A stretch of 36,791 nt of DNA from a virus, in the IMG/VR virus record IMGVR_UViG_3300029787_000144, positions 376 through 37,166 of that record. One strand, given 5' to 3'. A program made the translations under genes and the position numbers. Position 1 is the stretch's first letter. Each line of letters begins with the position of its first letter. Below, piece after piece: positions 799-26,299 of the stretch. The notes beneath the pieces are model-generated. The model was given only the letters and a program-made list of their open reading frames with translations, did not search any database and had not been told where the DNA came from.

Positions 799-3165
799 TT
801 ACTTCCTTCCCATAGCATTCATAGCTGCTATATCTCTTTGAGTTTCTATTCTATCTTGAGCAATTTGATCTTGTTGCTGAAGACGTTGAGTATCTATCAT
901 TACATCGTTATTTTCTTTTTGCATCTCCATTTCTTGTTTTTGTTGGAATTGCTGTTCTTTCTGTTGTATCTCCTGACCTCTCAAAGCTAATTCTTGTTTT
1001 CTTATTGTAACAAGTGGATCTTCTTGTGCTGGTGGAGTTAACGATTGTGCATATTGTTCACTTACTTCAGCAGATATTTCTGCTGCACGAGAAGCAACTT
1101 GATCTGCAATTTGTTTTTGCATATTTGGATCTTGTTGCATCATCATTTGTTGTTCTGGCGGAATAGATGCCATAACTTCTTGTTGTGCAGTTATCTCTGA
1201 CATCATTGCCATATGCTCAGATATGTGACCTTGTAATGTCATAAGTATAGCAGCGTTTGCTTGTGCAACGGGTGTTGAAATCATAGCTAAGTGAGCTGTT
1301 ATATGAGCTTGATGATTTTGCTCTGGAAATGCTGTTAGCGTTCCACCTCTTAAAGCCTCTTGATTTTCTTTTGCAGGGTTCATGGGCATCGGTTGTGGGG
1401 GAGGCTGCAACACTTGGTCTATATTTGTAACGCCTAATGCTTCGTACATTTTACGATAGGCTTGATACATACCATTCTGCCCATGAATTTCTGGATTGCT
1501 TTGAGCCAACTGTAATTGAGTTTGAGCTAAAGCAATACGTTGTGACATGGAGAATATGTTTGGATCTGAAACAGGTAATATATCTATTCGATCATCAAAA
1601 TCAGTTTGTTTTATTTCTGGTGGCGCTCCTGGTACTTGATATGGATACATCGGAACATCCATAGCAAAGATACGAGCTAATAATTTAAATTCTATTTTTT
1701 GTGAATAATGAAGACGTTTATGAATAGCAGACATGACCTTCGTGCCACGCTCCATAATAGCCATAGTTGTGCCAACAGGAGCGTTGCCTTGCATCTCGCC
1801 AACTTTCATATCAGCCATAGATGCAAAACGTCTGCCAGAATCAATTAATGTTCCCATAAGAGAATATAATGTTTGTGATGGTTCTTTGAATGGTAATGGC
1901 ATGATGGCTGATCTTAGATCACCACCAACCATATCCACATCTCTAAATTCACCAGGATTAAGAGGTGTCTCGTCATCTCTTATTCTAGCTCCTCTAGCCT
2001 TAAAACCTGCTGGTAGGTTAGATAGTGTGCCAGCATCTATTAACTGCCTTAGAATGGACGTAGAAGCTCTGGAAAGACCACCTATAGTGTGCGTGAGACC
2101 AAAACCATAAAACCCAAGACCAGGTAAGAACTTATAATGAATAAAGTAAGGCACTTTCCTACGGAGCGGATCGTTTTCATTGAAATTCCGTTTGATTGAT
2201 AAGACATCCCCAGTGTCCTCCATGATTGTGACGATATAGGGCATCTTCAGTCCTGTCGGTTCACCATCAGCTCCAATATCTTCAAACCCCTCAATATCCA
2301 AATCTGTGTGAACTTCATAAACCATCATCTCTTCATTCTGTGAAGAGCTACTTGTAATACCTTCTATCTCATTGATTGTATCCTTCACATCGCTCATGCC
2401 ATCAGAGTCAGCGCCAGAGCTAGGAAGGTCTATATCTTTGTAAAATCCTGATAATTGTAATTTTTTAATTTCATTTTTGTCCATACGGATACAATGAGTA
2501 ATTCTTGTGGCAGTCGCTAAGTCTGTTGCACTGTATGGAACAATTAAGTCCTCAGAATGCACAAACTTACTTACTGCTCTTTGCATTGTTGGATCAAAGT
2601 AAACTTTTTTAAATGCTGAACCTACTATTGGAAGATAGAATAACATCTGATAATTCATATAATTTTTAACACGCTCTGCTTGAGCTGATGTCTCTGGAGT
2701 TTCTGCTCCAATAATTGCTGTTTTAACTGGTCCTCCAGCGGGTAGCATTTCACGATATGCTTGTGCTTGAAACTGTGTAACGGATTCAGCCAATAGTGGA
2801 TGCACTATACCAGATGCACCCTCGAAAGGTTCTGATCTATCTTCGTAACTCATACCAAGAAGTTCTAATCCGCCTTTATATTGTTCTTCCCAATCGCTTC
2901 TTGAATTGGTGTCATCTTCAATATTGCCTATGATTTCATTAGATATTTCTGACAATACACTTTCATCAATGTGTTCTGCTAGGTTTGCATCGAAAGGAAT
3001 AGTAATAGGAGCTTCTGCTTCCATTTGCATTTCACCAATGATAGCTGATCCATCATCCATCTCTGTGATGCCTTCAAGCATAGGCTGTTGTGCTAATTCA
3101 ACTAAGCTAGATTCTAGCTCTGGAGGAATCGCACCATCAATACCATTTATTTTTTCGATTGCCAT
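799..3165 (-). CDS. Portal protein
   Basis: A 788-residue portal, the dodecameric ring at the capsid vertex through which DNA is packaged and ejected and to which terminase docks. An acidic N-terminal extension of about 90 residues is followed by SDWEEQYKGGLELLGM and EGASGIVHPLLAESV, typical of large portals of podovirus-like marine phages. The central part contains KVPYFIHYKFLPGLGFYGFGLTH, a proline/aspartate-rich wing, and RRFASMADMKVGEMQG. The last 230 residues are Gln/Met/Glu-rich and helical, as in P22-type portals whose C-termini form a long barrel. AGGAT lies 5 nt before the ATG. It follows TerL and three repeat proteins. Family assignment is from overall pattern; high confidence. Confidence 0.9.
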   Translation of the reverse strand: MAIEKINGIDGAIPPELESSLVELAQQPMLEGITEMDDGSAIIGEMQMEAEAPITIPFDANLAEHIDESVLSEISNEIIGNIEDDTNSRSDWEEQYKGGLELLGMSYEDRSEPFEGASGIVHPLLAESVTQFQAQAYREMLPAGGPVKTAIIGAETPETSAQAERVKNYMNYQMLFYLPIVGSAFKKVYFDPTMQRAVSKFVHSEDLIVPYSATDLATATRITHCIRMDKNEIKKLQLSGFYKDIDLPSSGADSDGMSDVKDTINEIEGITSSSSQNEEMMVYEVHTDLDIEGFEDIGADGEPTGLKMPYIVTIMEDTGDVLSIKRNFNENDPLRRKVPYFIHYKFLPGLGFYGFGLTHTIGGLSRASTSILRQLIDAGTLSNLPAGFKARGARIRDDETPLNPGEFRDVDMVGGDLRSAIMPLPFKEPSQTLYSLMGTLIDSGRRFASMADMKVGEMQGNAPVGTTMAIMERGTKVMSAIHKRLHYSQKIEFKLLARIFAMDVPMYPYQVPGAPPEIKQTDFDDRIDILPVSDPNIFSMSQRIALAQTQLQLAQSNPEIHGQNGMYQAYRKMYEALGVTNIDQVLQPPPQPMPMNPAKENQEALRGGTLTAFPEQNHQAHITAHLAMISTPVAQANAAILMTLQGHISEHMAMMSEITAQQEVMASIPPEQQMMMQQDPNMQKQIADQVASRAAEISAEVSEQYAQSLTPPAQEDPLVTIRKQELALRGQEIQQKEQQFQQKQEMEMQKENNDVMIDTQRLQQQDQIAQDRIETQRDIAAMNAMGRK

Positions 3166-3173
3166 TTTAAATC

Positions 3174-3992
3174 CTATCTAATAGAAAAGCCGCCACCTTT
3201 GATTGCTGCACCCATGCCACGACATGACATCTTGCCACCTTTGACAGAACCGCCACCACCGTATTCTTCGACCTTGCCACCCATTTTATATTTAGATGCT
3301 AAATCTGGGTCCATTTTCTGTTGAACTTTTTCAGGTAATTTTGAAAATCCTTTGAATTTTGATGGTACAGCTTCACCACCAACTTTCATTTTCTTTACTT
3401 TACCGCCGTATTTCATTCCTTTTCTAGAACCAATAATCATCATCATTCTCTCACGATCAGCGTCTGAAATGGTTTTTCCAGATTCACCCATCATTTGCAA
3501 CATACTAGCTCTGTCTGCATCACTAATTTTTTTTCCAGATTCACCTAAAATAGCTTGTATCATTTCTCTGTTAGCGTCAGACATTGCACTACCGCCTTCT
3601 CTCATCTTTTTAACCTTGCCGCCAAATTTCATTTTTTTTACATTCTCTGCGTTCTTTTTATTTGTCCTAGCAACATTTTTACTAAATTCTTTATCTAAAG
3701 ATTCGGTTTTGTCTGCCTTCAGACTCTTAGGTCTTAATTTAGGCTTTGGCACATTACCACCATCTTTCATTTCTTTTGCTTTTACTTTTTCTATTGCCAT
3801 CGCAAGACCTCCGTCTTTAAATTTTGAAACACCTTTATTTTTTCTCATTTCCTTATTAAGTCCAGTTCCATAGCCGTAACCCATTTCACGCATTATTTCT
3901 CTAATTGCCGCTCTGTCTTTACCTTTAGTTTGTTTAGGAAAGTTTCTTTTAAACATGCTTTCCATATCTTTAAAACTTTGATCCATTCTCAT
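3174..3992 (-). CDS. Lys/Gly/Met-rich virion-associated protein with ISDADR repeats
   Basis: A 272-residue basic protein with two kinds of internal repeat. The motif MKxGGxV (KFKDGG, EMKDGG, KMKFGGKV, KMREGG, GMKYGGKV, KMKVGGE, KMGGKV) recurs through the chain. In the middle, three copies of a roughly 19-residue unit follow each other, reading GESGK-I-SDADR (first copy SDANR) plus a hydrophobic Met/Ile helix. The C-terminus ends in a Gly-rich RGMGAAIKGGGF tail. GGAG is 6 nt before the ATG. It is third of four linked genes between TerL and portal. The charge and repeats suggest binding to DNA or to other virion proteins sharing the motif; no catalytic residues are visible. Confidence 0.8.
   Translation of the reverse strand: MRMDQSFKDMESMFKRNFPKQTKGKDRAAIREIMREMGYGYGTGLNKEMRKNKGVSKFKDGGLAMAIEKVKAKEMKDGGNVPKPKLRPKSLKADKTESLDKEFSKNVARTNKKNAENVKKMKFGGKVKKMREGGSAMSDANREMIQAILGESGKKISDADRASMLQMMGESGKTISDADRERMMMIIGSRKGMKYGGKVKKMKVGGEAVPSKFKGFSKLPEKVQQKMDPDLASKYKMGGKVEEYGGGGSVKGGKMSCRGMGAAIKGGGFSIR
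3425..3590 (-). repeat. Three tandem ISDADR coding repeats
   Basis: Coding repeat of about 57 nt, three degenerate copies in tandem within the 272-residue protein. Each encodes (I)SDA(D/N)R followed by a Met/Ile-rich helix and Gly. The last two copies are closest to each other. A fourth copy of the motif is in the 594-residue virion protein near 31.87 kb. Confidence 0.7.
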
Positions 3993-3993
3993 A

Positions 3994-4479
3994 TTACTCT
4001 CCTGTCTTTGGGTTAACCATAATTGATCTAGTCATGTTTATAACTTCACCACCATTTTTCATGGTTATGATGTTTTTACTAACGTCAAATGCTCCACCTT
4101 TTTTGGGATCAATATCAAAAGTTTGTGCTTTAACTCTAACTCTTGGAGCTTTACTGCCACGCTTTAATTTTGCCATCATAGCAGCATCAGCTTTTTTCTG
4201 TTTATCAACAGACTTAATGCCCGTTCTGCCACTTTGAATTTGCTCAATAATTTTAGCTACACCTTTTGCAGCAGCGTTTGAATCTTTCTTTTTACTCACA
4301 GAACCACCGTCTTTCAGTAACTTAATTTGTTTCATTTTGGTTGTATCTATTACTTTAACCTTTGGCTCTATCTTCTTTGTCTTAGGTGTCACGCCTTTAC
4401 CAAAGTTCTTACCAGGAACAGCTTGACCACGCCTTGCTAATTCTTGGTAAGTTCTAATTCTATCAGCTTCGTCTGACAC
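3994..4479 (-). CDS. Basic MKxGG-motif phage protein
   Basis: A 161-residue basic protein that starts with GTG; the GTG overlaps the TAG of the previous gene by one base and has AAAGGAG 7 nt upstream, so the non-ATG start is well supported. It is Lys-rich (KIEPKVKVIDTTKMKQIKLL region) and carries KLLKDGGSV and ITMKNGGEV copies of the MKxGG motif shared with its neighbours. No enzymatic motif is visible. Its position between TerL and portal and the shared motif imply a structural or head-completion role. Function unknown. Confidence 0.75.
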   Translation of the reverse strand: MSDEADRIRTYQELARRGQAVPGKNFGKGVTPKTKKIEPKVKVIDTTKMKQIKLLKDGGSVSKKKDSNAAAKGVAKIIEQIQSGRTGIKSVDKQKKADAAMMAKLKRGSKAPRVRVKAQTFDIDPKKGGAFDVSKNIITMKNGGEVINMTRSIMVNPKTGE

Positions 4480-4757
4480 TACCTAACTCCTTTGAACTTC
4501 CCACCTCTGCCGGGAACAACACCGCCCATGTTCATCTTTATAGGCTTGACTTTACCACCGCCCATCATACCAACGGGCATAGACTTGGTTGTGTCCATAA
4601 CTTCGCCACCCATTTCCATTTTTTTAAAAAGACCTGATTTTTTTCCAGCGTCCATCATTATTTTAATCATTTCTTTTTCTGATATAGATCCTCCACCTTT
4701 TCTTATTGCTGAAGATGCTTTATCGTCTAAAATCTTACCTACACTTTTTCCTGGCAT
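4479..4757 (-). CDS. Small Gly/Met/Lys-rich MxxGG phage protein
   Basis: A 92-residue protein. The N-terminal half looks helical (GKILDDKASSAIRKGGGSISEKEMIKIMMDAG); the C-terminal half is a series of MEMGGEV, GMMGGGKV and NMGGVVPGRGGKF repeats like those in the two genes that follow. Its ATG overlaps the TerL stop (TAATG), implying translational coupling to TerL. Such MxxGGxV tails recur in several virion proteins of this phage. Function unknown; probably structural. Confidence 0.75.
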   Translation of the reverse strand: MPGKSVGKILDDKASSAIRKGGGSISEKEMIKIMMDAGKKSGLFKKMEMGGEVMDTTKSMPVGMMGGGKVKPIKMNMGGVVPGRGGKFKGVR

Positions 4758-6241
4758 TAGTAATACTCCATTTTTCTTCTATATCCTGGTTCAAATTCTT
4801 CATCATCAGGTGTGGATATAAAACCACCTTGTCTGAATCTTAGTATAGCCTGTGTCATCGAATCTGCCAAGTCATCATGGTCGCCATGTGGAAAACTAGC
4901 ACATTCTTCAACAACTTCCTCTGCAAAATTAGCATCTGGTCTCCATACCATACCACTTTCAAAGACAGGCGCACAAGCATTCATTCTTGCAAACTTATCA
5001 GCACCTTTACTCGGTGTAAAGGGTGTAACTGGAATACCCATACGTCTAAGCTCTTGTGTTAAAGGCATACCACTAGCTTTTTGCTCTATTAAAATCATGT
5101 CTGGATCATAAGCCTCGCTTAGTTCTTGAGCCTTTAATTTTAATTCTGGAAAATCCCATCTGCCCTTTTCAGCATCAAGTAAAATAATCGCATCACCCTC
5201 ACCCTCTACTGGAGTAAATATCCCCCAAGTAGTAATAGCACTATAGTCAGCACGATCATTTTTACTGAAAGCGGTATCGTATGATTGTATGACGTATGAA
5301 CACGGAGGTGGTTCACTATTATCCCAAACATTCCACCACTCCCTTTTTATAATCGCTCCTTCTTCTGCCGTTGGGTTCTGCATATACTGTGCATTCCACT
5401 TGGCTACGGGAATAGATGCCTTTACACCATCTAATTCGTCTCGACTCCAATATTCGGGCCATAATACATTGTTCGTCTCTGGAAATATTGCTGGAAATTC
5501 CACGACTTCCCATTTGTCTGCGCCTCCTTCAGCTTGTTTTGCAATAACTCTTGCCGTTAAATCCTTAATACCCCATCTCGTCATAACAATGATAATCGAA
5601 CCACCTGGCTGCAATCTCTGTCTTGGACCTGATGTATACCATTCATAAATACCGTCTAAAGCTGTCGGACTCAGTGCGTCTTGTTCAGATACAGGATCGT
5701 CAATAATACACAAATCAGCTCCACGACCAGCTAACGCACCACCAACTCCAACAGCGTAATATTCACCTCCACCATTTGTTGACCATCTACCTGATGCCTT
5801 CGCATCACTAGCTAATTTTATATCAGGAAATATATCTCTGAAATCATCGCTATCAATTAAATTCTTAACCTTACGACCAAAACCCACAGCTAACTCTGCC
5901 GTGTGTGTCGCTTGTATTATCTTTAAATCAGGTCGTTTGCCCATAAGCCACGCTGGAAACAAGTAACTCGCAAACTCTGATTTAGTATGTCTAGGCGGCA
6001 TATTGATAATTAAACGCTTGATTTTACCATCGGCTACTTGCTGTAATTTATTTGCATAAATCTTATGATGCTTACCCTCAATGAAAGAGGGCCAAATCTT
6101 CTTTACAAACTTTAAATAATTATCTTGGTTTTTTTTCTGATCTTCCAACAAAGAAAGTCTATCAAGTAACGGAGCTAGTTTGGATAACTCATCATCACTT
6201 AAATATTCTGCAAATTCCTCTGGTTTGATCTGCTCATTCAT
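4757..6241 (-). CDS. terL: Terminase large subunit
   Basis: The 494-residue DNA-packaging motor: an ATPase that pumps DNA through the portal and a nuclease that cuts the concatemer. ATPase domain: adenine-binding/Walker A-like PPRHTKSE at 82-89, Walker B CIIDD with acids at 181-182, and a TRWG stretch near 221 acting as coupling motif. RNase H-like nuclease domain: SYDTAF with D322, LIEQKAS with E386, and HGDHDDLADS with D456/D457 and D460, giving the expected acidic triad. The PRHTKS form of Walker A is the common one in Terminase_6/RNaseH-like terminases. Start and stop overlap both neighbours (TAATG). The small subunit is separated by about 7 kb of accessory cassettes. Confidence 0.95.
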   Translation of the reverse strand: MNEQIKPEEFAEYLSDDELSKLAPLLDRLSLLEDQKKNQDNYLKFVKKIWPSFIEGKHHKIYANKLQQVADGKIKRLIINMPPRHTKSEFASYLFPAWLMGKRPDLKIIQATHTAELAVGFGRKVKNLIDSDDFRDIFPDIKLASDAKASGRWSTNGGGEYYAVGVGGALAGRGADLCIIDDPVSEQDALSPTALDGIYEWYTSGPRQRLQPGGSIIIVMTRWGIKDLTARVIAKQAEGGADKWEVVEFPAIFPETNNVLWPEYWSRDELDGVKASIPVAKWNAQYMQNPTAEEGAIIKREWWNVWDNSEPPPCSYVIQSYDTAFSKNDRADYSAITTWGIFTPVEGEGDAIILLDAEKGRWDFPELKLKAQELSEAYDPDMILIEQKASGMPLTQELRRMGIPVTPFTPSKGADKFARMNACAPVFESGMVWRPDANFAEEVVEECASFPHGDHDDLADSMTQAILRFRQGGFISTPDDEEFEPGYRRKMEYY

Positions 6242-23370: not shown

Positions 23371-23638
23371 CTTTACCCTCTGCCCACAAAGCACCATAAC
23401 CAATTACATCTATAGGATTATCAATATTTTTTGGATTTTGTGAATCTCTAACAAGTTTTTGGACAATACAAAATTTATACATATCATCATAAGTCAAATC
23501 AGATTTTAACTTGTGCCTCCATAATACGTTCATAATTTTAGCTATTGATTCATGTGTGTCTTTGGCATCACCATGAGTTCTTGCTCTTGAGCCATTAATT
23601 AATTGTTCTGCTTTTTGTAAAGCCTCACTACGCTGCAT
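23345..23638 (-). CDS. DUF6378-like phage protein
   Basis: A 97-residue protein with the layout of a widespread phage family (DUF6378, from memory): GSRARTHGDAKDTHESIAKIMN, DMYKFCIVQKLVRDSQNPKN, DNPIDVIGYGALWAEG. Members lie among replication and nucleotide-metabolism genes and their function is unknown. It overlaps the helicase end and the next gene's start. Length is normal. Confidence 0.75.
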   Translation of the reverse strand: MQRSEALQKAEQLINGSRARTHGDAKDTHESIAKIMNVLWRHKLKSDLTYDDMYKFCIVQKLVRDSQNPKNIDNPIDVIGYGALWAEGKDGKINAKL

Positions 23639-25304
23639 TTTTTTCTCCTATACTTGCAATTCTGTTATCTATATCTTTTTTATTCCATAAATAATTTAAC
23701 CAACAAGCAGCCTTATACTTGTTCCAACTAAAATCCATAACCCTAACTGTTATACCACAATTCTTTAGTGCTTGTGTTTGTTTAGGTGTAACAGCTTCAT
23801 TTAACCATCTTTTACCTTTCCTTGCGCCATCACTATCTTCAATCTTTCTTAGAAAGTCATCAGCAGCGGCTATGGCTTGTTCCTTAGTTCCAATACTAAC
23901 AACCCTTAATCGTCCATTAGAACGCTTTACAAGGGCTATAGAGACATCATCTAAGTGTGCAACTAATCCAAAGCCATTAAACCCACTAGCACTCACACAG
24001 CGTCCATTATCAAACAAATCTACCCAACGATAAGGCGATCTATCCATAAGGTCAACTTCGGTCATAATGAAGTCTTCTAATACTTCTTTATCTTGCTGAC
24101 CAAACTCATATCCACATAAAGGACATTCACGAGATGATAATGGTACAACTGATTCGCATTGTGGACATGTTTTTTCAGGAGCAGCACCTGTTCCTCTAGC
24201 CTCTGAACCTTCTAAGTCAACTAACTCGTCTAATGATCCATGTGTAAGTACACTTGTCCCAAAATCTAAAACTATACAATCTTTTTTTATAATTCCGGGG
24301 TGTTCTTCAGGATCTATTGTTCGCAGTCCACGACCAATCATTTGCACCATTGTAGATTTATATGAACATGGTCTTGTAAGAACAATGCAACTAACTGGTG
24401 GAGCATCAAATCCTTCTGTAAGCACAGCAACATTAACAACGACCTGAACATCTCCATGTTCTAAATCATGTAATATTTGTTGTCTTTCATCGCTTGGAGT
24501 TTCACCCGTAAGTAGTTCAGACCTAATGCCAGCCCTACGATATTCATCGCAAACATCTTGTGCATGTATAACTGTAGAACAAAAGACAACTGTTTTTCTA
24601 TCTCCCGCTTTCTCTTGCCATTCCTGAACAATACGTTCATTGATGGCTCTTTTATTCATAATACGCTCAACTTCGCCCATATCAAAATCAGATATAGTTT
24701 TGCGAACATTTTCTAATTCTTGTCTGACACCTACATCTACAACAAATGTCTTTGGTGGTACGAGAAAACCCTCACGAATTAATGTGGTGATTTCTATTTG
24801 ATGCGAACAATTATTAAATATGCTACGTAAACCTTTTCTATCTCCACGATTAGGAGTAGCAGTAAATCCAACAATCTCAACTGAATTGTTAGCTTCTTTA
24901 ACTCTATCAATAATTCTTGTATATGTTTCTGCTATTATATGATGGCTTTCATCAACAACAACCATGTCAAAATTACACATGTTTTCTAAATTGTTCGGTC
25001 TTGAAAGCGTCTGAACCATACTAAATATAGTTTCACCAGACCAATCTTTCTCTGATCCATCTACTACACTTGTTGTTATTTTTGGATTTACTCTTGAAAA
25101 CTTTGTTCTGTTTTGCCTGACTAACTCGTCACGATGTTGTAAAATTAAAATCTTTTTGCCTTGCTTGTATCGTTTACCGACTAAAGCTGAAAGCATGATT
25201 GTCTTACCTGCTCCCGTTGGAGCGACAACAATAGTGTTTTTGTGTTTGGTAAGAGCAATAGAAGCATCGTCAACTGCTATCTTTTGATATGGTCTAAGAA
25301 TCAT
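23628..25304 (-). CDS. SF2 DEAD/DEAH-box helicase with C-terminal zinc ribbon
   Basis: A 558-residue helicase in the UvsW/ResIII group. Q-motif-like RPYQ near the start, Walker A APTGAGKT (28-35), motif II DESH (118-121), motif III TAT (148-150), motif V LTEGFDAPPV and motif VI QMIGRGLRT in the second RecA domain (about 300-335). CPQC ... CPLC (about 385-405) forms a zinc ribbon. The last 150 residues are not recognised. Such phage helicases remodel forks and recombination intermediates. It overlaps the zinc-finger gene before it and the DUF6378 gene after it. Confidence 0.9.
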   Translation of the reverse strand: MILRPYQKIAVDDASIALTKHKNTIVVAPTGAGKTIMLSALVGKRYKQGKKILILQHRDELVRQNRTKFSRVNPKITTSVVDGSEKDWSGETIFSMVQTLSRPNNLENMCNFDMVVVDESHHIIAETYTRIIDRVKEANNSVEIVGFTATPNRGDRKGLRSIFNNCSHQIEITTLIREGFLVPPKTFVVDVGVRQELENVRKTISDFDMGEVERIMNKRAINERIVQEWQEKAGDRKTVVFCSTVIHAQDVCDEYRRAGIRSELLTGETPSDERQQILHDLEHGDVQVVVNVAVLTEGFDAPPVSCIVLTRPCSYKSTMVQMIGRGLRTIDPEEHPGIIKKDCIVLDFGTSVLTHGSLDELVDLEGSEARGTGAAPEKTCPQCESVVPLSSRECPLCGYEFGQQDKEVLEDFIMTEVDLMDRSPYRWVDLFDNGRCVSASGFNGFGLVAHLDDVSIALVKRSNGRLRVVSIGTKEQAIAAADDFLRKIEDSDGARKGKRWLNEAVTPKQTQALKNCGITVRVMDFSWNKYKAACWLNYLWNKKDIDNRIASIGEKNAA

Positions 25305-25578
25305 TTTCTAACTCTTTGATTCTTTGTTTTAAATTATTAATTTTATCAATAAACTTTTGTTTATCTCTTTGTCTTTGAGCGGCTGCTCTGCAATTAGAAC
25401 TACAATATTTAAGACCTTGACTGCCTTGATTCATTCTAATTACTAAAATTTTTTTAACTTTTTTACATTGAGGACATGAAAAATCGAAAGTCTTTGTTTT
25501 TTTTATTTTATTAATACGAGCAAATGCTTTTGCAATCTGTTCATCAAACTCTTGTTTGGCTTGTTCGTATGTTTTCAT
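25294..25578 (-). CDS. Zinc-finger phage protein
   Basis: A 94-residue protein from MKTYEQAKQEF; AAAGG lies 7 nt before this ATG, whereas the ATG at 25593 has no ribosome site. CPQC and CSSNC near residues 35-65, in a YCSSNCRAAAQRQRDKQKF context, give a C2-C2 zinc finger followed by a basic helix, resembling CGNR/FCS-type fingers that bind DNA or RNA. It is preceded by the structured RNA at 25606-25675 and overlaps the helicase by 11 nt. It might bind or be controlled by that RNA; this is speculation. Confidence 0.75.
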   Translation of the reverse strand: MKTYEQAKQEFDEQIAKAFARINKIKKTKTFDFSCPQCKKVKKILVIRMNQGSQGLKYCSSNCRAAAQRQRDKQKFIDKINNLKQRIKELENDS

Positions 25579-25605: not shown

Positions 25606-25675
25606 TGGGTAGTTTGGCGGCGCTCGTACTACCCAAACGAGTTCTAGCAGACGAAGGAAAGTCTTGCCGCTAGAA
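25606..25675 (-). ncRNA. Structured RNA: bulged hairpin plus H-type pseudoknot
   Basis: In a 94-nt gap on the minus strand. P1: TTCTAGC/GCTAGAA (25675-25669 with 25648-25642), a GGCA bulge, AGAC/GTCT and an 8-nt loop. Directly after it: stem CTCGT/ACGAG (25641-25637 with 25627-25623) whose loop TGGGTAGT (25635-25628) pairs with ACTACCCA (25613-25606) to give an 8-bp second stem. That leaves a 1-nt loop 1 and a 9-nt loop 3, good geometry for an H-type pseudoknot. GCC in loop 3 could also meet the GGC bulge of P1. It ends 16 nt before the ribosome site of the zinc-finger gene. I recognise no known riboswitch class. Confidence 0.65.
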
Positions 25676-25687
25676 ATAAGTTACCCT

Positions 25688-26299
25688 TTAAGATGCCCAA
25701 GGTGGCACTACACTACCTGCCGTGGTAGCTTGGGGTTGAACTCCTTGATCGATTGGTTGCTGAACCTGCGGTGCAACCTGAACTACACCACCAGCTATAA
25801 AACCTTTATGATCTGCACATATTGGACCTCTGAGAATATTCTTATCAGCATATCCATTAGTGCCTTTTTCAATACCAATCTTAATGCAAAACTCCTGACC
25901 TTGCAAAGCATCAATACCAGGAATCTTTCTTTTATTATTAGATTCTACTGACACATCTTTAGGGTCAAGACCAAGCATACTATCAACAAGTAAACGTAAA
26001 GTTCTAATACCGTTTACTCTAGCTTTTGATATACCTTGATCGTTTTTAGAATCACCATCAAAGAATATATTTTGCCATACCTTACGCTTATCAAATTGAC
26101 CACCAACAATGGTAAATTCTGTCTCTATATATTTCGCACTTGAATGTGGAGACTCTTTAAACATTGGTGTACTAGCAAATTCTTCAATGATAGTATGATT
26201 AGGTTTAATTAAAAGAATTGCACGAGCAATCGTTCCTTCAGGAATCAATTCAAACTCGTTACTTGTTTCGCTCATGGAAACATTACTTAGGTCAAGCAT
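25688..26299 (-). CDS. Single-stranded DNA-binding protein (DUF669-like)
   Basis: A 203-residue protein with an OB-fold-like core: FELIPEGTIARAILLIKPNH, KYIETEFTIVGGQFDKRKVWQNIFF, QEFCIKIGIEKG. The C-terminal 40 residues are Gln/Pro/Val-rich and end VPPWAS, like the tail by which SSBs recruit partners. It overlaps the Sak4-like gene by 8 nt, the usual pairing of recombinase and SSB in phages. It would coat ssDNA during replication and annealing. Sequence identity with bacterial SSB is not obvious; family from pattern. Confidence 0.75.
   Translation of the reverse strand: MLDLSNVSMSETSNEFELIPEGTIARAILLIKPNHTIIEEFASTPMFKESPHSSAKYIETEFTIVGGQFDKRKVWQNIFFDGDSKNDQGISKARVNGIRTLRLLVDSMLGLDPKDVSVESNNKRKIPGIDALQGQEFCIKIGIEKGTNGYADKNILRGPICADHKGFIAGGVVQVAPQVQQPIDQGVQPQATTAGSVVPPWAS

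Follow-up and report, generated by a model that had tools for sequence, protein, structure and literature searches.

A conserved pseudoknot RNA between DNA-replication genes of uncultured tailed phages

The locus and the folded element

The window analysed here, 36,791 nt of the IMG/VR virus record IMGVR_UViG_3300029787_000144, carries on its minus strand an element of 70 nt (25675-25606), which lies in a 94-nt gap between two DNA-replication genes. The gap is preceded by a gene for a predicted single-stranded DNA (ssDNA)-binding protein, hereafter the SSB-like gene, and followed by a zinc-finger-like gene and a helicase gene. The features are given below in the 5' to 3' direction of the minus strand.

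25688..26299, minus strand: upstream (SSB-like) gene, 203 aa, of the unnamed PHROGs family phrog_2300; predicted OB-fold ssDNA-binding protein
25606..25675, minus strand: whole structured RNA, from P1a to PK'; covariance models R1 and R2 match exactly these coordinates, and covariation supports it
25669..25675, minus strand: P1a 5' strand, UUCUAGC; pairs with 25642-25648, double changes in 6 of 7 pairs
25665..25668, minus strand: bulge GGCA; GGC pairs with GCC of loop 3 at 25619-25621 (helix T)
25661..25664, minus strand: P1b 5' strand, AGAC; pairs with 25649-25652, all 4 of 4 pairs doubly changed
25653..25660, minus strand: hairpin loop of P1, variable among relatives
25649..25652, minus strand: P1b 3' strand, GUCU; covariation
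25642..25648, minus strand: P1a 3' strand, GCUAGAA; covariation
25637..25641, minus strand: P2 5' strand, CUCGU; pairs with 25623-25627, 100% paired in alignment A5
25636, minus strand: loop 1, U; 1 nt here, 1-3 nt among relatives
25628..25635, minus strand: pseudoknot 5' strand, UGGGUAGU; partner strand 25606-25613, 95.8% of cells paired and double changes in 5 of 8 pairs (A5)
25623..25627, minus strand: P2 3' strand, ACGAG; covariation
25614..25622, minus strand: loop 3, CGCCGCCAA; 9 nt, GCC pairs with the bulge, A-rich end
25606..25613, minus strand: pseudoknot 3' strand (PK'), ACUACCCA; covariation
25294..25578, minus strand: zinc-finger-like gene, 94 aa from ATG 25578; optional insert between RNA and helicase
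23628..25304, minus strand: DEAD/ResIII helicase gene, 558 aa; usual next gene, overlapped by the zinc-finger-like gene

All of the helices named in an earlier, sequence-only reading of this DNA (a bulged P1 of 7 + 4 bp, a 5-bp stem and an 8-bp pseudoknot) are present on the minus strand, 25675-25606, with the loop lengths of 1, 0 and 9 nt that it had given. Its placement of the element in a gap upstream of the zinc-finger and helicase genes also stands, on the minus strand. The right border is probably another: the start codon there would be ATG 25578 rather than 25593, because an AAAGG motif (25590-25586), which begins 15 nt past the end of PK', stands 7 nt before 25578. The thermodynamics of the window sequence alone are not decisive and give no proof of structure, with a single-sequence folding energy of z -1.68 and 13 of 200 shuffles folding as well. 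In the pseudoknot-free minimum-energy fold, the longer pseudoknot stem replaces P2, which is what a pseudoknot would give. The plus-strand fold of the region (z -1.57) was rejected as an echo of the minus-strand stems.

Conservation of the fold among relatives

Searches with the helicase, with the upstream protein and with sequence patterns gathered several hundred IMG/VR loci. The same element follows the upstream gene with or without the zinc-finger gene, and loci of distant relatives of the upstream protein have it in different letters. Trained on 8 sequences, model R1 also detects groups outside its seed, at E values of 1e-13 to 1e-3. Compensatory double changes were counted in alignments of 8 seed sequences (A3), 33 distinct leaders gathered with R1 (A5) and 43 distinct leaders (A7). 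They occur in 13 of the 28 pairs of A3 (25 cells, against 5.7 in shuffles) and in 21 of the 28 pairs of A5 (127 cells; 12.7 pairs and 37±4 cells in shuffles), where 94.4% of pair cells are paired; A7 holds 186 doubly changed cells, against 57 in shuffles. None of 500 shuffles reached the count of any of the three alignments, a statistic that takes no account of relatedness among leaders, and a control on A5 with slid partners gave at most 9 pairs and 22 cells doubly changed.

Since only P1a, P1b and P2 guided the fitting of the alignments, the pseudoknot and helix T are the cleaner tests. Across A5 and A7, 97.7-100% of P2 cells and 87-96% of pseudoknot cells are paired, with double changes in both; the A7 pairing percentages of the pseudoknot are underestimates, since an aligner without a pseudoknot model had partly shifted it. 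In helix T, 100% of cells are paired and 2 of 3 pairs are doubly changed (A5). The P2 loop pairs 3' of its stem, loop 1 is short and loop 2 has 0 nt, so that the assignment as an H-type pseudoknot is supported, pair by pair, by compensatory changes. The proposed contact between GCC of loop 3 and the GGC bulge is borne out as well, since helix T covaries from GGC/GCC to CUC/GAG (L292) and GUGGC/GCCAC (L299). The refuting condition set by the sequence-only reading, a lack of compensatory changes in homologues, was examined and did not hold. Outside terminal pairs, G.U cells exceed A.C cells by 15:1 in A5, which indicates that the minus-strand (coding) RNA is what folds.

A separate descriptor, made of P1a, P1b, P2 and the pseudoknot, was applied to 140 distinct leaders and fits 105 of them, and none of 760 dinucleotide-shuffled leaders; its pseudoknot part alone fits 4 of the 760. 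Leaders that fail the descriptor have the RNA farther downstream behind an insert or a slightly different P1, or belong to an RNA-less lineage or to AcaML1, WO or MAnkyphage.

The letters of the helices change freely. P2 has at least 13 self-consistent versions among relatives, for example CUCGU/ACGAG, UCGGU/ACCGA, CUGGU/ACCAG, CGAGU/ACUCG, UAUGU/ACAUA, CUCUG/CAGAG, CACGG/CCGUG, CAAGG/CCUUG and ACACG/CGUGU. The pseudoknot changes from GGGUAGU/ACUACCC to GGGUAGC/GCUACCC, GGGCGGC/GCCGCCC, GGGGAGU/ACUCCCC, GGGGGG/CCCCCC and GAGGGAG/CUCCCUC, and P1a from CUAGC/GCUAG to CUAAC/GUUAG and UCCAAC/GUUGGA. The two stem-loops are separated by 0-3 nt, loop 2 has 0 nt in the window and relatives, and loop 3 has 8-10 nt, nine in nearly all relatives. 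Unpaired bases are hardly conserved, apart from the A-rich loop 3 and the A of the GGCA bulge, which is conserved across relatives without consistent pairing. Free stem letters together with fixed geometry (P2 of 5 bp, loop 3 mostly of nine nt) suggest recognition of shape, and the scarcity of conserved unpaired bases points to shape recognition or a mechanical role rather than to a metabolite pocket. A constant spacing between the upstream stop codon and the RNA was considered and fails, as P1a begins 0-3 nt past the stop in one large group but 6-18 nt past it in others (31 and 74 of 105 distinct leaders, respectively). Because the fold is kept while the letters change across hundreds of related phages, we regard it as near certain that the element in the window is a real, conserved and functional structured RNA.

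Genomic context and distribution

The constant neighbour of the RNA is the upstream SSB-like gene. Pfam gives no family for its 203-aa product, and the name DUF669, considered for the gene, was dropped for that reason. An AlphaFold model of the protein (mean pLDDT 81.8) has as its best Foldseek match the ssDNA-binding protein PrgE (8s4s and 8s4t, E 5e-5 to 8e-5), with Z of 9.1 and 8.9 and rmsd of 6.1 and 2.7 over 122 and 110 residues, respectively; next come other OB folds, among them a portion of the RadD helicase, PriB and SSBs. The modelled fold makes it probable that the upstream protein binds ssDNA.

In all loci read, the RNA is co-directional and has on its 5' side the SSB-like gene or a gene inserted behind it. 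The SSB-like gene is the one it follows in almost every locus, and all readable new loci found through the SSB-like protein carry it; in L209, L229 and L230, a gene of 306/310 aa is inserted after the SSB-like gene and the RNA is 3' of that insert. One copy was found in the record of the window, in each of five contigs of 54-58 kb and in each of two contigs of 34 and 42 kb.

What comes after the RNA is variable. Most relatives have no zinc-finger gene, the helicase stands directly next to the RNA in most, and at least eight different genes may follow it; besides the helicase these include zinc-finger-like, HNH-like (L048, by motif), C-5 cytosine methylase (L258, Pfam) and small helix-turn-helix-like genes and genes for unknown proteins. 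The suggestion that the element is a leader dedicated to the zinc-finger gene is therefore not upheld. Moreover, three lineages (L276/L277, L285 and L287) have an open frame that starts upstream of the RNA, encloses it and overlaps the end of the upstream gene, so that there the RNA is no simple leader of an adjacent start codon. The protein of this spanning frame is related to a small helix-turn-helix protein of an RNA-less lineage, and the RNA coincides with a variable linker. In that sub-lineage (L267, L270, L272, L280, L282, L290, L296 and others), the SSB-like gene and the helicase are kept, no RNA is detectable between them and the small helix-turn-helix gene occupies its place.

The carriers form a large and mainly marine assemblage of tailed phages, all of them uncultured. 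The RNA is absent from nine named phage records (HTVC027P, HTVC023P, 023Pt_psg01, DSL-LC04, CRP-901, GB2A, AcaML1, WO and MAnkyphage), the first three of which have the closest terminase and portal-like proteins, and no DNA-level homology to cultured phages was found. All 10 pattern matches in bacterial genome contigs lack the second half of the element; a search of 398 Pseudomonadota genomes gave one match (L311, E 9.8e-4), which is about chance level and in which the second half was not seen.

Several side observations were made at these loci. A second RNA-like block of 90-106 nt lies just past the stop of the SSB-like gene, between that gene and the pseudoknot RNA, in L225, L232, L255 (about 3901-4003), L257, L262, L263 and L266; it has two hairpins, UCAAUGC...GGUAUUGA and GGGAAGAGCC...GGCUCUUCCC, compensatory changes in 7 of 29 predicted pairs (alignment A9) and no Rfam match. 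Also after the SSB-like gene, L229, L230, L257 and L263 share a conserved short block (UUUUCUGGAAGUYAGGAUUACRGCGAAAGCUGUGCRUCUCCAGA) that could form a closing stem around an internal GAAA hairpin. The spot right 3' of the pseudoknot RNA (25594-25294 in the window and the same place in relatives) is a gene-insertion hot spot with alternating zinc-finger-like, HNH-like, methylase, helix-turn-helix and unknown small genes. Elsewhere in the window, the terminase and portal-like proteins (799-6241) are closest to those of the Pelagibacter phages HTVC027P and HTVC023P and of 023Pt_psg01 (about 50-60% identity), and a phosphoadenosine-phosphosulfate-reductase-like protein adjoins a cytosine methylase-like gene (19098-19937 and 17884-19110; both named by sequence resemblance only).

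Possible roles and nearest known systems

The sequence-only reading had matched the element to no known class, and this agrees with Rfam 15, which gave no gathering match in the window or in 8 loci. At E<=10 the only hit in the window was an opposite-strand match of 15.9 bits (gathering 60), and at E<=1 there was none in L326, L347, L292 or L240. Absent from Rfam 15, the element is a so far uncatalogued family. A literature search found no description of it; an earlier description under another name is possible, for example in a 2017 list of 224 motifs.

We tentatively suggest, with less than even confidence, that it represents a new RNA family of the SSB-helicase operon, an intercistronic pseudoknot acting in cis and after transcription. 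In its fold, P1a/P1b and P2 make neighbouring stem-loops, the P2 loop forms an H-type pseudoknot with the 3' flank, and the covariation shows a further long-range helix between the P1 bulge and loop 3. Independence from the next gene and the tolerated coding context speak for a function in the mRNA (or the transcription complex) as such. We speculate, with more reserve, that the rigid fold works post-transcriptionally within the mRNA, where it would mark the border between the SSB-like message and whichever gene comes next, and would set downstream expression, either as the target of a protein or as a folded obstacle to the ribosome or to RNases. By analogy with the T4 gene 32 pseudoknot, recognition of shape by a protein would be the most likely single variant, and the first candidate ligand would be the SSB-like protein encoded just upstream, a putative role suggested by neighbourhood only. 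Three observations stand against this proposed working: the regulated gene is not constant, with at least eight possible next genes; in L276, L285 and L287 the element is enclosed in a reading frame; and the RNA-less sub-lineage retains the SSB-like gene and the helicase. It is possible, if doubtful, that the element is a functionally new class of phage RNA, multiply knotted, recognised by shape and acting in cis in a replication operon whichever gene comes next, even when translated through; a nuclease- or polymerase-facing RNA or a new ribozyme would be examples.

Among the alternatives, an intercistronic element of mRNA stability or processing survives best, and we consider it unlikely. The knot would stop a 3'-5' or 5'-3' RNase, or be itself a processing site, and the SSB-like and downstream messages would differ in lifetime. 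Such a role fits the indifference to the next gene, the tolerated coding context, the fixed compact geometry with few conserved unpaired bases and the lack of an intrinsic terminator at the element; however, simple hairpins are usually enough for it.

A ribosome-responsive switch is rather improbable. GCUAGA of the P1a 3' strand would pair either with UCUAGC of P1a or with a second copy of it before the Shine-Dalgarno site, so that termination at the upstream stop codon would place a ribosome over the first copy, favour pairing with the second and alter initiation of the next gene. Across 19 clusters, complementarity between the P1a 3' strand and the leader near the Shine-Dalgarno site totals 89, against 61.6 in shuffles (maximum 73 in 500 shuffles), five other tested segments have no such excess, and the start of P1a 0-3 nt past the stop in 31 of the 105 distinct leaders would suit the model, the other 74 having 6-18 nt. 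However, the second copy occurs in about 10 of the 19 clusters, these being related to each other, it does not track sequence changes of P1a, and in the window it is mismatched (UCCAGC). The second UCUAG copy beside the Shine-Dalgarno site, present in about half of the clusters, is nevertheless a specific lead for a ribosome-driven switch.

A further alternative is modelled on the put RNAs of phage HK022, which are about 70 nt long, have two stem-loops and act over 10 kb (PMC9378689). An antitermination RNA of this kind, acting in cis on RNA polymerase for everything downstream, would share with the element the length, the two stem-loops 0-3 nt apart and the bulged first stem, and its position-independent action would suit variable downstream genes. 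Against this improbable reading, put sites are described near early promoters, and the text on them mentions no pseudoknot (PMC9378689), whereas the element is mid-operon; no promoter stands out in a weak consensus scan (16 promoter-like sites, against 25 in shuffles), and freely changing stem letters are unlike a fixed polymerase contact. A replication signal for origin function, whether as an RNA primer with this fold or as a primosome-loading site in folded ssDNA, is quite improbable: the single copy per genome within an SSB/helicase/primase cluster, the indifference to neighbours and the tolerance inside a reading frame are in keeping with it, but GC skew in the window has no sign change at 25.6 kb, and the G.U excess fits a coding-strand RNA.

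The strand order P1a-T-P1b-P1b'-P1a'-P2-P2'-T' equals the HDV order P1-P2-P3-P3'-P1'-P4-P4'-P2', and nested pseudoknots are typical of small ribozymes. HDV ribozymes are marked by a 5' G of P1, a catalytic C between P4' and P2', and P1.1. Ribozymes are enriched near Mu-like phage genes (PMC10085705), which also counts towards a self-cleaving ribozyme. Such a reading is very improbable, since the P1 5' end lacks the G, there is neither GG for P1.1 nor a P1.1 partner, the nucleotide between P2' and T' may be U, G, C or A, so that no C is conserved, and no Rfam ribozyme matches. HDV and put were considered as families and not accepted. A small-molecule riboswitch, one of the roles first proposed, is hardly to be expected: a compact pseudoknot does precede the ribosome site in most phages, but almost no unpaired bases beyond the one bulge A and the A-rich loop are conserved for a pocket, the downstream genes are unrelated and share no common pathway, and there is no universal anti-Shine-Dalgarno helix. 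Programmed frameshifting or readthrough was rejected, as the window has no frame that stays open beyond the stop, an in-frame UAG coming 15 nt on.

To our knowledge, experiments have explained only a few cis-acting phage RNAs, and next to none from uncultured marine phages. The element is small, occurs once per genome, is absent from Rfam and is fully set by covariation, including three interlocking pairings; its indifference to the next gene and its capacity to sit within a reading frame speak against an ordinary riboswitch. It lends itself readily to chemical probing, crystallography and reporter assays.

Of the known systems, the ssNA-helicase motif is an Rfam family that is known from metagenomes only and close to helicase genes, as is the element, which differs in having no Rfam 15 match on its own strand (E<=10 in the window, E<=1 in four other lineages). 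HDV-like ribozymes share the strand order of four helices and the nested double pseudoknot; the element has no 5' G in P1, no catalytic C position and no P1.1, and adds a loop-to-tail pseudoknot. The IncI plasmid ColIb-P9 has, at repY-repZ, a pseudoknot between an upstream stop codon and the ribosome site of a replication gene, a likeness of position, but its control by antisense RNA and a leader peptide has no counterpart seen here, and the fold is another. HK022 put is likewise a phage-operon RNA of about 70 nt with two adjacent stem-loops, the first bulged, and acts in antitermination through the zinc-binding domain of RNA polymerase beta'; it differs by its triplex, by its place near early promoters rather than mid-operon and, as far as the source describes it, by having no pseudoknot. 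We then turn to T4 gene 32, whose ssDNA-binding protein autoregulates its synthesis through a leader pseudoknot on the 5' side of its own gene. The element does not occupy such a leader position: in all relatives read it comes downstream of the SSB-like gene and ahead of the following one, and compared with T4 it has an extra bulged stem-loop and the third long-range helix. In both cases, a phage mRNA pseudoknot is tied to the gene of an ssDNA-binding protein, which here is a predicted one.
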